Assembly (NCBI GenBank): GCA_019695295.1
Contig: JAIBAH010000025.1
Span: forward strand, 1-43,473
Length of the DNA: 43,473 bases
From: Bacteroidia bacterium
Lineage (GTDB): Bacteria > Bacteroidota > Bacteroidia > J057
Direction: 5' to 3'
Shown here: positions 18,096 through 33,242 of the stretch, in pieces
Layout: the number at the start of each line of letters is the position of its first letter
Numbering within the stretch: position 1 is the first letter of the stretch
Notes under the pieces: model-generated
Database searches by the model: none
The model's input: only the letters and a program-made list of their open reading frames with translations
Told to the model about the DNA's origin: nothing
Made by a program: the position numbers and the translations under genes

Positions 18096-18117
18096 TCCCA
18101 TCAAAATGCTTTCATAT

Positions 18118-19005
18118 ATGCAGCTAATAGACGGAAAAAAAACGGCGAAGATTATTCAGGATGAAATCAGGACAGAAGTGGCCGGGTTTATAAACAAAGG
18201 CTTAAGACCACCGCATCTTGTGGCTATACTCGTTGGCAACGACGGAGCCTCTCAAACTTATGTCAGTCATAAAATGACGGCCTGTAAATATGTGGGATTT
18301 CTATCTACAAATCTGGTTTTTCCGGATGATATTTCTGAAGAAGCTTTGCTCGCCGAGGTAGAAAAATGCAATCAAAATCCGGAAATAGACGGATTGATTG
18401 TACAACTGCCTTTGCCCGCTCATATTGACTATATGAAAATTATTCTTGCGATACGTCCTGAAAAAGACGTAGATGGTTTTCATCCGGCTAATGTAGGCAA
18501 AATGGTGATGGGACTGCCCACTTTATTGCCGGCTACTCCCTATGGAGTAATGGAGTTGCTTAAAAGATACAAAGTGGAAACGAAAGGAAAAAACTGTGTA
18601 GTAATCGGAAGAAGTCTGATTGTGGGTACACCGATGAGTATTTTAATGGGACGGGTGGGAATTGATGGTACACCGGTGATGTGTCACAGGCATACGCCTG
18701 AGTCCGAAAGAAAAATCTTTACCCGAAATGCGGATATCCTGATTGTAGCAGTAGGGATTCCCGGATTTATCAAAGAGGATGATGTAAAAGAAGGCGTAGT
18801 GATAATAGATGTAGGTACAACAAGAGTAGAAGATACAACGACTAAAGCCGGATACAGGTTACGGGGAGATGTAGATTTTGAAAGTGTATCCCCTAAATGC
18901 GCAATGATAACCCCTGTTCCGGGAGGAGTTGGCCCTATGACTGTAACTATGTTGATACAAAATACGTTTAATACATACAAGGCACGATACACTTCCTCCA
19001 GTTAA
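18118..19005 (+). CDS. folD: Bifunctional methylenetetrahydrofolate dehydrogenase/cyclohydrolase FolD
   Basis: The enzyme interconverts 5,10-methylene-, 5,10-methenyl- and 10-formyl-tetrahydrofolate in the cytosol. From the ATG at 18118 it is 295 residues. The frame also offers an ATG at 18106 (MLSYM...), but family members begin at the MQLIDGKK segment and a -7 box sits at 18088. Signatures are YVSHKMTACKYVGF (catalytic Lys), QLPLP, KDVDGFHPANVG, PATPYGVMELL, IGRSLIVGTPMS and PVPGGVGPMTVTML, all intact. It is divergent from the CotH gene; the small Cys-rich gene follows after 69 bp and may be read through. Confidence 0.95.
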   Translation: MQLIDGKKTAKIIQDEIRTEVAGFINKGLRPPHLVAILVGNDGASQTYVSHKMTACKYVGFLSTNLVFPDDISEEALLAEVEKCNQNPEIDGLIVQLPLPAHIDYMKIILAIRPEKDVDGFHPANVGKMVMGLPTLLPATPYGVMELLKRYKVETKGKNCVVIGRSLIVGTPMSILMGRVGIDGTPVMCHRHTPESERKIFTRNADILIVAVGIPGFIKEDDVKEGVVIIDVGTTRVEDTTTKAGYRLRGDVDFESVSPKCAMITPVPGGVGPMTVTMLIQNTFNTYKARYTSSS

Positions 19006-19074: not shown

Positions 19075-19464
19075 ATGAAATCATTAATTTCTTTTTTGTT
19101 TTTTATCGTATTTGCGGTAACCGTTACATTTGCTCAGTCAGAAGCTACTGCTGTTAAGGGTTCTACTGGCTGCTCCAAAGGCTCTGAAGCAAAAGCTTGC
19201 TGCGCTAAAGGAAATGCTACAGCAACTGCTGCTACAGAAACCAAGGCCTGCTGTGCTAAAGGAGGTGCTGCCGCTACTTCTGCTACTGAAGGCAAAGCTT
19301 GTTGTGCCAAAGGAAAAGGCGCTGCTTCTTCCTGCAAAGGAGACAAAGCATCTGCTGACGTTTCGGGTTCTGCCGGAGAAGTGGTTGAAGAGCAGACAGC
19401 TCCTGTAAAAGTGGTAAGAAGAGTAACTCAGAAAGGAGTTCAGCCTAAGAGCGCACAGGATTAA
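19075..19464 (+). CDS. Small exported protein with 17-residue Cys-Cys repeats, function unknown
   Basis: I do not recognise this 129-residue protein. It has a clear signal peptide (1-20, ending TFAQ). Residues 41-91 are three consecutive 17-residue units, each beginning ACCAKG; the first is ACCAKGNATATAATETK. Single-Cys outliers CSKG (Cys 33) and SCKG (Cys 87) flank or fall within them, giving eight cysteines in total: 33, 42, 43, 59, 60, 76, 77 and 87. The remainder is Ala/Thr/Gly/Lys-rich. The tail (about 100-129) is acidic, then basic (VKVVRRVTQKG). Regular vicinal Cys pairs in an exported low-complexity chain suggest metal or thiol chemistry, but that is inference. It lies 69 bp after folD and ends at a strong terminator. 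Confidence 0.85.
   Translation: MKSLISFLFFIVFAVTVTFAQSEATAVKGSTGCSKGSEAKACCAKGNATATAATETKACCAKGGAAATSATEGKACCAKGKGAASSCKGDKASADVSGSAGEVVEEQTAPVKVVRRVTQKGVQPKSAQD
19195..19347 (+). repeat. Three in-frame 51-bp repeats in the Cys-rich gene
   Basis: The coding repeat of the ACCAKG protein has a 51-bp period and three units (codons 41-57, 58-74 and 75-91). The third is the most divergent. Codon choice varies between units, for example TGCTGC, TGCTGT and TGTTGT for the Cys pair. Confidence 0.85.
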
Positions 19465-19485: not shown

Positions 19486-19521
19486 AAAAGGCAATATGTT
19501 TTCCGCATATTGCCTTTTTTT
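19486..19521 (+). terminator. Intrinsic terminator after the Cys-rich gene
   Basis: A 13-bp perfect stem (19486-19498 with 19506-19518; core GGCAATATG) is followed by a seven-T run. It lies between two convergent genes; on the minus strand the T-run is short, so it mainly serves the plus strand. Confidence 0.87.
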
Positions 19522-31522: not shown

Positions 31523-31667
31523 ATTTTTCATTAAACCCGTTTTAACTGTAAAAAATGGTATGACTACTGTTTTTGGGGAGTAAATTCCGGGTATAAAATA
31601 TTTGTATTTTTCCCTGTTTTTTATTTTCTTTGTATGCAGTTCAACATTCCCAACCCGTGAGTATTAT

Positions 31668-33242
31668 ATGAATTTTTCCAAAATCTATACCCTGATACAA
31701 AAAGGCCAAATAGCAAAAACGCTGAATGCCCTTGAACAAATAGTTGGCGGTAAGAGCAATGAAGAAGTGCAGCAAATAAAGGCAGAATGGAAAAAAAATA
31801 AAACGGAAATCCTTTCAGACCCGCTAAAGAAAACCGCTTTTATTACGCATTTGCTTAGCCTGATAAAAAAGCTGGAGGAAAAATATCCGGAAGTGCCCAA
31901 AATGGAGGAGAATTCCTCTCTTCCGGTAAGTATTGAGAAACTGCTGGAAGGTCTGAATCCGGATGTGTTTGAAGGCCTCAATTTAAAGGAGCTCAATCTC
32001 AGTAATCTGGATTTGAGCCTGAATGAAAAGGAGTTGAACAGAAATCCCGGCAAAGAAATTTCATTGGGGAAAAACACGCTTTCGTGGATGAATACTTATG
32101 ATATCCTCAAAGAAAGAGTGATTGCCCCGGCAGAAGGGCCGGCAACGGCCGGCGATGAGCCTCCCGAAGCAGAAGAGGAACTTCCGGTGGGGGTATTACT
32201 GCATTGTATTCCCCGGAAAATGCAGGTTGGAACGGCTCACCGGTGTATTATCCGGATTGCGCAGGATGAAAAAAAAGTGCGGATTGGTTTGCCGGATTAT
32301 GCAGAAAACGAGGAACTAAGAGAAATAGAAATCAGTGAAGAAATGGAAGTAACCTTTATTCCTACTCATCATTTTGAGATTACTCCCATCAATTCCGCCA
32401 AGCAAAAAATCCTGAAAAAATATCATACGGAATGGAATTTTGATGTAACCCCGAAATCAACGGGAACCTTCCCCCTTAATTTTGTAGTGTCTGTCATTTA
32501 CTATGAAGACGGAGAACAAATAAGAGAAGTAACGCTTACAGAAAGAGTGATGGTAAGTACTGAGCCGGTAGCCTCAACCCTTGAATATGTTCCTTCTTCT
32601 CCGAAACCGTATGAGCCTGAGGCAAAACCCTTTCCGGTATTAATGCTCACGGCAAACCCGGCAGGAACTACACAATTGAATCTCGACAAGGAACACAGCA
32701 GAATTGCGGAGAAATTGCAGAATCATCCTCTGTATTTTCCCCTGATTGTAAAACGGGCAGTAGATAAAGTAACTTTCAGGGAGGAAATCATTGAGGAAAA
32801 GCCGGGATTCCTTCATTTTTCGGGACACGGAACACTTCCCGAAAGCGAAACCGGCTCATCCGCCCATCAGGGAGGAATTGTGCTTCAGAATGAAGAACAT
32901 AACGGATACGAACAGATTAGTGCTGAAGCACTGGGGATTCTTTTTGAATACTTTAAAGAGGAAGGGATTCCGCTTCAGGCAGTGATTCTGAATGCCTGTT
33001 TTTCGGAAGAGCAGGCTTGCGCAATCGCTGCTTATGTCCCCTACGTCATCGGTACAACCCAAAACATCAAAGACACACATGCAATTGCATTCAGTGTGGG
33101 GTTTTATTTCAGACTAATGGAGAATTATCCCGGGACAGATATAGAAATGGCTTTTAAGTCCGGCAGAACCTCCGCTGTACTGGAAGGAGCCCCCAAGCAT
33201 TCTTTCGTTATCTATAAAGACGGTATGAAAGTATCCGGATAA
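31668..33242 (+). CDS. CHAT-domain caspase-like protein with possible effector-associated N-terminus
   Basis: The protein is 524 residues from the ATG at 31668. An earlier ATG at 31602 would add a hydrophobic 22-residue lead that looks spurious. Residues about 1-75 are helical (IYTLIQKGQIAKTLNALEQI) and resemble small effector-associated (EAD11-like) domains. A Leu/Asn-rich linker (about 85-130; LNLKELNLSNLDLSLNEKEL) and a beta-sandwich-like region (about 160-310; WNFDVTPKSTGTFPLNFVV) follow. The CHAT protease domain (about 325-524) has HFSGHGT (His 387) and LNACFSEEQA (Cys 444). CHAT proteins act as proteases in bacterial conflict systems such as TPR-CHAT. No gasdermin, NTPase, CRISPR or other partner is adjacent, so target and trigger are unknown. 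Confidence 0.85.
   Translation: MNFSKIYTLIQKGQIAKTLNALEQIVGGKSNEEVQQIKAEWKKNKTEILSDPLKKTAFITHLLSLIKKLEEKYPEVPKMEENSSLPVSIEKLLEGLNPDVFEGLNLKELNLSNLDLSLNEKELNRNPGKEISLGKNTLSWMNTYDILKERVIAPAEGPATAGDEPPEAEEELPVGVLLHCIPRKMQVGTAHRCIIRIAQDEKKVRIGLPDYAENEELREIEISEEMEVTFIPTHHFEITPINSAKQKILKKYHTEWNFDVTPKSTGTFPLNFVVSVIYYEDGEQIREVTLTERVMVSTEPVASTLEYVPSSPKPYEPEAKPFPVLMLTANPAGTTQLNLDKEHSRIAEKLQNHPLYFPLIVKRAVDKVTFREEIIEEKPGFLHFSGHGTLPESETGSSAHQGGIVLQNEEHNGYEQISAEALGILFEYFKEEGIPLQAVILNACFSEEQACAIAAYVPYVIGTTQNIKDTHAIAFSVGFYFRLMENYPGTDIEMAFKSGRTSAVLEGAPKHSFVIYKDGMKVSG

Follow-up and report, generated by a model that had tools for sequence, protein, structure and literature searches.

A predicted secreted vicinal-cysteine repeat protein from a Bacteroidia bacterium with a putative role in soft-metal binding outside the cytoplasm

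We describe here a small protein, predicted to be exported, in which a seven-residue core, KACCAKG, recurs three times at a spacing of exactly 17 residues (starts at residues 40, 57, and 74). From its sequence and from the genes that adjoin its distant relatives, we consider it probable that this is a secreted, disordered thiol protein whose vicinal cysteines bind soft metal ions, Cu(I) being the most plausible, and that it serves as an extracytoplasmic sponge. The window, that is, the whole stretch of 43,473 nucleotides that was analyzed, contains the following features of interest.

18106 to 19005, forward strand: folD, upstream of the repeat gene, with Pfam domains THF_DHG_CYH and THF_DHG_CYH_C
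19075 to 19464, forward strand: gene for the exported CC-repeat protein, 129 amino acids plus stop, from the list of open reading frames
19075 to 19137, forward strand: signal peptide, residues 1 to 21, MKSLISFLFFIVFAVTVTFAQ, seen in the sequence, conserved in the homolog and the only well-predicted helix of the structural model
19171 to 19182, forward strand: CSKG flanking motif (within GCSKG), residues 33 to 36, seen in the sequence
19192 to 19242, forward strand: unit 1, KACCAKGNATATAATET, from the repeat comparison
19243 to 19293, forward strand: unit 2, KACCAKGGAAATSATEG, from the repeat comparison
19294 to 19344, forward strand: unit 3, KACCAKGKGAASSCKGD, core identical, linker diverged, SCKG at 19330 to 19341
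19345 to 19461, forward strand: Cys-free tail, partly conserved in the homolog by alignment (VKVVRRVTQKG and TKAVRRVTHAG)
19486 to 19518, forward strand: intrinsic-terminator-like hairpin, 14 pairs followed by a T run, ending the transcription unit

A repeated KACCAKG core in a predicted exported, Cys-rich chain

The initial annotation had described an open reading frame with a signal peptide, eight cysteines, and flanking CSKG and SCKG motifs, all of which are present in the 129-residue product. The N-terminal signal-like helix appears to end in ...TFA-Q, where we would place the cleavage site, and no other transmembrane helix is found in the protein. By composition count, the mature part (108 residues) is dominated by Ala (24), Lys (14), Gly (13), Ser (11), and Thr (10); it holds all eight cysteines, six of them as three CC pairs, and neither His nor Met. 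An AlphaFold model, for which the two sequences of the genus were the only alignment, has a mean pLDDT of 43.5, with nothing confident apart from the helix at the signal peptide. The mature chain is thus probably disordered according to the model, a two-sequence alignment being a weak basis for such a prediction.

GCSKG precedes the three KACCAKG cores, and SSCKG, which gives the linker of unit 3 its extra SCKG, follows them. The repeat had been called an exact one of 17 residues, which holds for the seven-residue core and for the spacing, whereas whole units match at only 8 to 13 of 17 positions (13 for units 1 and 2, 8 for units 1 and 3, and 10 for units 2 and 3). Tandem Repeats Finder (TRF) delimits the array at 19192 to 19316, with a period of 51 bp, 2.5 copies, and a 75% match. 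DNA encoding ACCAKG occurs three times in the 4.9-Mb genome, each time within this gene. The mature protein was shuffled 20,000 times for comparison: a seven-residue word was never found three times at equal spacing, the longest such word being of six residues, in four shuffles, and 0.3% of the shuffled sequences had at least three CC pairs. The repetition of KACCAKG therefore exceeds chance for this composition.

Synonymous differences between the units had been taken as a sign that the repeat is under selection, and the codon comparison bears this out for the core. Five of the seven core codons vary from unit to unit, always synonymously, for a core in which only 13 of the 63 possible single changes are synonymous; in the linkers, the three unit pairs differ by 4, 9, and 7 replacement codons versus 2, 1, and 2 synonymous ones. 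Since the core changes silently and the linkers change mostly by replacement, it is reasonable to conclude from the sequence that the core motif is maintained by selection.

Two further features of the window were noted. Its first 162 nucleotides, at the start of the contig, form a perfect tandem repeat with a period of 58 bp and 2.8 copies, which could be either a genuine array or an effect of the assembly edge. The open reading frame at 31602 to 33242 encodes a protein whose C-terminal part, following an N-terminal helical region, resembles by eye a CHAT-type protease (FSGHG ... LNAC).

Conservation in the genus and in more distant relatives

A homolog with 54 to 55% identity was found in a second genome of the genus, directly downstream of folD, on a contig that matches CAUJFT010000334.1 (Bacteroidota bacterium isolate KLAP112). 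Its motifs are KACCKG, SSCSKG, KSCCSKG, and ACKGG: two Cys pairs are retained, and the 17-residue period is absent. Over 113 aligned codons, dN is about 0.36 and dS about 1.0, in a low-complexity alignment that is rough in its middle part, and the corresponding values for the signal peptide are 0.12 and 1.17. No match was obtained in the third genome of the genus or in the ten remaining genomes of the family, which makes the gene dispensable. The position downstream of folD is occupied by such a gene in 2 of 13 family genomes, a count in which two contigs (L074 and L084) end soon after folD or inside it and are not conclusive for that position. A scan of the contig collection returned the same-genus homolog as its only match, and no relative was found among the plasmid records.

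In both genomes of the genus, the gene lies on the same strand as folD after a short gap (69 bp in the window and 32 bp in the second genome), suggesting that the two are probably cotranscribed. Terminator-like sites number two in the search that found the hairpin, versus a mean of 0.9 in shuffles. Beyond the hairpin, murF is encoded on the opposite strand, so the immediate neighbors, folD and murF, include no metal gene and offer no clue to function. A link of the Cys protein to folate metabolism was considered and rejected, the association with folD being merely positional.

A profile search of a class-wide sample matched 19 of 395 genomes in a patchy distribution. A good part of these 19 are genuine small exported CC proteins (L010 to L017, L020, L024, and L027) and the rest is low-complexity noise. 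Candidates whose translated open reading frame had no CC pair were dropped; among the false positives obtained in the profile searches with low-complexity alignments were L039, L040, L089, and L007, and the first two contain no Cys at all. Exported Lys/Ala-rich proteins devoid of Cys also occur in the same match lists. A phylum-wide search with a larger alignment contributed no more than a few weak candidates containing Cys (L092, L097, and L100). The relatives have in common a signal peptide, [KAE]CC[SAK]-type motifs, single cysteines in SC-type contexts, and a Lys-rich basic tail. KxCCSKG and SC motifs also mark the looser ones, and several have additional His residues beside Cys (GHGH, CHQ, and CSHG). 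We group these proteins as exported CC[AS]KG proteins, defined by a signal peptide, at least two Cys motifs of the KxCC[ASK]K or SCK type, and a Lys/Ala-rich chain, and the window protein fits this grouping. Their common descent beyond the genus is plausible from the sequences, although not provable given the low-complexity composition. The view that a 17-residue period is the essential design, as had been supposed, is not supported: the same-genus homolog and all the distant relatives use other CC spacings.

The most informative context comes from another family of the same class (f35), in which the CC protein was found in 11 of 16 genomes. In ten of these 11 (the exception being G185), its gene is divergent from an adjacent gene for an exported HMA-domain protein. 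The ten pairs come from three genera (six from g45, two from g78, and two from g174) and represent retention across these genera rather than independent events. Two of them (G089 in L110 and G327 in L111) came to light blind, when the HMA protein was searched for in genomes where the CC profile had no match. The neighbors beyond the CC gene vary, comprising a TPR-like gene and secG in g45, a pheT-like gene in g78, and another gene in g174, whereas next to the HMA gene there is often a galE-like gene (names read from the translations). The HMA partners match the Pfam HMA family and are MerP/CopZ-like, with scores against the MerP and CopZ models that fall below the cut-offs of those models. In four other genomes, the relatives L029, L030, L033, and L034 have no adjacent HMA gene. 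Two of these, which belong to different families, have a conserved gene order in which a phosphatidylserine-decarboxylase-like gene immediately precedes the gene for the CC protein (L030:4291-5277 and L033:3845-4810).

Exported HMA proteins with a C-terminal CC[KQ]-type tail ([LP/LH]xCC[KQ]) are widespread in Bacteroidota. We collected 37 HMA proteins with a CC[KQTHRY] tail from many families (e.g., LPACCQ and LHACCKK) in a search that required the tail, and the number therefore gives no frequency. Across the phylum, such proteins often have as neighbors CzcA-like pumps, proteins resembling outer-membrane (TonB) receptors, and HYC_CC_PP proteins, all probable metal genes. The genome of the window itself encodes one HMA-CC protein on another contig (C46; L052:3551-3904). 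In another family, an exported-looking, metallothionein-like peptide of 62 residues and 12 Cys, DSCCCSTCDCQTCECSDCNDCSNCGSAGCGECSK, adjoins an exported HMA gene (L117:1879-2067 and L068:3006-3194); it is unrelated to the CC protein and belongs to no Pfam or NCBIfam family.

Comparison with known metal-binding proteins

The initial annotation could name no family for the protein, and this holds for Pfam, NCBIfam, and PDB, none of which contains a relative. No Pfam family was matched at an E value of 1 or below, hence no metallothionein, Csp, or HMA model, and the sole NCBIfam match was an irrelevant beta-lactamase (E value of 0.35), with no metallothionein model. The protein has no CxxC motif and no HMA domain, and its relatives scored above the cut-off of no Pfam or NCBIfam family. 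Our literature search found no described counterpart in Bacteroidota. Among the matches listed, text searches for CCSKG and CCAKG gave unrelated text only, and those for KLAP112 and HYC_CC_PP gave no mention.

Csp proteins are four-helix bundles, whereas the window protein is predicted to be unfolded, with no confident helix past the signal peptide and no Pfam match. Csp copper storage proteins are otherwise described as Cys-rich and in some cases periplasmic. Classical bacterial metallothioneins are cytosolic. SmtA, PmtA, and MymT are comparable to our protein in being small and Cys-rich and in the metal-thiolate chemistry that we presume, but the latter has 8 Cys in 108 mature residues, a signal peptide, and no match to the metallothionein models of Pfam and NCBIfam. 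PmtA is reported on the cell surface (PMC11237414). The repeat protein SilE is periplasmic and disordered; it binds six to eight Ag+ ions through His/Met motifs and acts with an efflux system (PMC5008109). The window protein resembles SilE and PcoE in being small, predicted to be exported and disordered, and based on a repeated motif, with cysteines as putative ligands spaced along the chain, but SilE relies on His and Met, both of which our mature protein lacks, and no sequence match emerged in the searches made. Since it fails the defining sequence features of SilE and of metallothioneins, we do not file it under either, though we propose that it works alike.

Transfer of Hg(II) has been proposed from the CxxC motif of MerP to the adjacent Cys24 and Cys25 of MerT (PMC5715351). 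The CC proteins and the exported HMA proteins likewise would bring vicinal CC pairs together with CxxC sites in one compartment of the envelope, and the CC[KQ] tail of the HMA proteins resembles CC[AS]K; the window protein differs in having no HMA domain and no transmembrane helices past its signal peptide. HYC_CC_PP proteins (NF047658) are also small, exported-looking CC-motif proteins of Bacteroidota that, in related loci, are encoded close to HMA genes and CzcA-like ones, yet the window protein does not match their model, while L120 and L069 from such loci do.

Proposed function and competing explanations

Our working hypothesis is that proteins of the window type would buffer soft metal outside the cytoplasm in the manner of SilE or a metallothionein, binding it in the periplasm or at the cell surface through the repeated K-A-C-C-[AS]-K-G and S-C-K-G motifs. 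The metal might be taken from, or given to, exported HMA proteins of the MerP/CopZ-like kind; with their CxxC site and the CC[KQ] tail at their C terminus, these could form a CxxC-to-CC relay analogous to the one proposed for MerP and MerT. Our analysis establishes the open reading frame, the repeated cores, the retention of Cys pairs in homologs, selection on the core, the prediction of export and disorder, and the HMA neighbor conserved in f35; from these we infer metal binding, the choice of metal, reduced thiols in the envelope, and any partner of the window protein.

A soft-metal role is the most likely one because distant relatives adjoin the gene of an exported HMA protein, a metal carrier. 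It is further supported by the survival of CC pairs in the same-genus homolog and in distant exported relatives while the rest diverges, by the sparing of the KACCAKG core in the substitutions between units, by the His residues beside Cys in several relatives, by the HMA-CC protein of the same genome and the 12-Cys peptide next to an HMA gene, and by the predicted lack of structure of the mature chain. SilE (PMC5008109) and MerP/MerT (PMC5715351) offer precedents for such a role. The suggestion of periplasmic or surface thiol/metal binding in the initial annotation is supported indirectly by the retained CC pairs and the HMA neighbor in f35. Against the metal role stand the neighborhood of folD and murF and the four relatives with no HMA neighbor, the dispensability of the gene, the uncertain homology beyond the genus, and the weakness of the disorder prediction. 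Cysteines in the envelope may moreover be oxidized, which counts against metal binding.

Such oxidation is at the heart of the strongest alternative, which we nevertheless regard as unlikely: that the Cys pairs form disulfides within or between chains, making the protein a metal-free thiol buffer or a cross-linked component of the envelope or matrix. An exported, Lys/Ala-rich protein with evenly spaced cysteines and with gene neighbors that have no direct tie to metals would suit this role, but it accounts poorly for the divergent HMA pairing conserved in three genera of f35 and for the His-Cys motifs, and the proteins carry few CC pairs each rather than long cross-linking arrays. We give still less credence to the idea that the protein is secreted and of low complexity but under weak constraint and devoid of a specific role, an Ala/Lys/Cys-rich segment having been duplicated in tandem in this lineage. 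The patchy distribution, the variable length and period, and the Cys-less exported proteins among the matches are as this idea would have it; the exclusively synonymous core changes, the dN/dS relative to the homolog (about 0.36 for the whole protein and 0.1 for its signal peptide), and the retention of Cys pairs while linkers change are not. The least probable is a binder that serves assembly rather than buffering (e.g., Cu delivery to envelope oxidases) or whose metal or metalloid is one other than Cu (Zn, Hg, or As). In its favor, several soft metals are bound by CC pairs and by CxxC partners, and some HMA relatives adjoin CzcA-like pumps or outer-membrane receptors, which handle various metals. 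None of our results tells this reading apart from the favored one; an oxidase assembly gene was seen beside no copy.

Coming back to the metal sponge that we favor, a wider and more tentative possibility, which we hold with some doubt, is an undescribed relay of Bacteroidota in which an exported HMA protein (CxxC plus CC[KQ] tail) would exchange soft metal with a disordered CC[AS]KG-repeat protein, an envelope counterpart of metallothioneins, of which the window protein would be a tandemly expanded member. If the metal role is true, a Cys-based envelope metal sponge would join the known type based on His and Met, and a function with a testable partner would be provided for small exported proteins unnamed in curated libraries, as well as for the widespread HMA-CC proteins.
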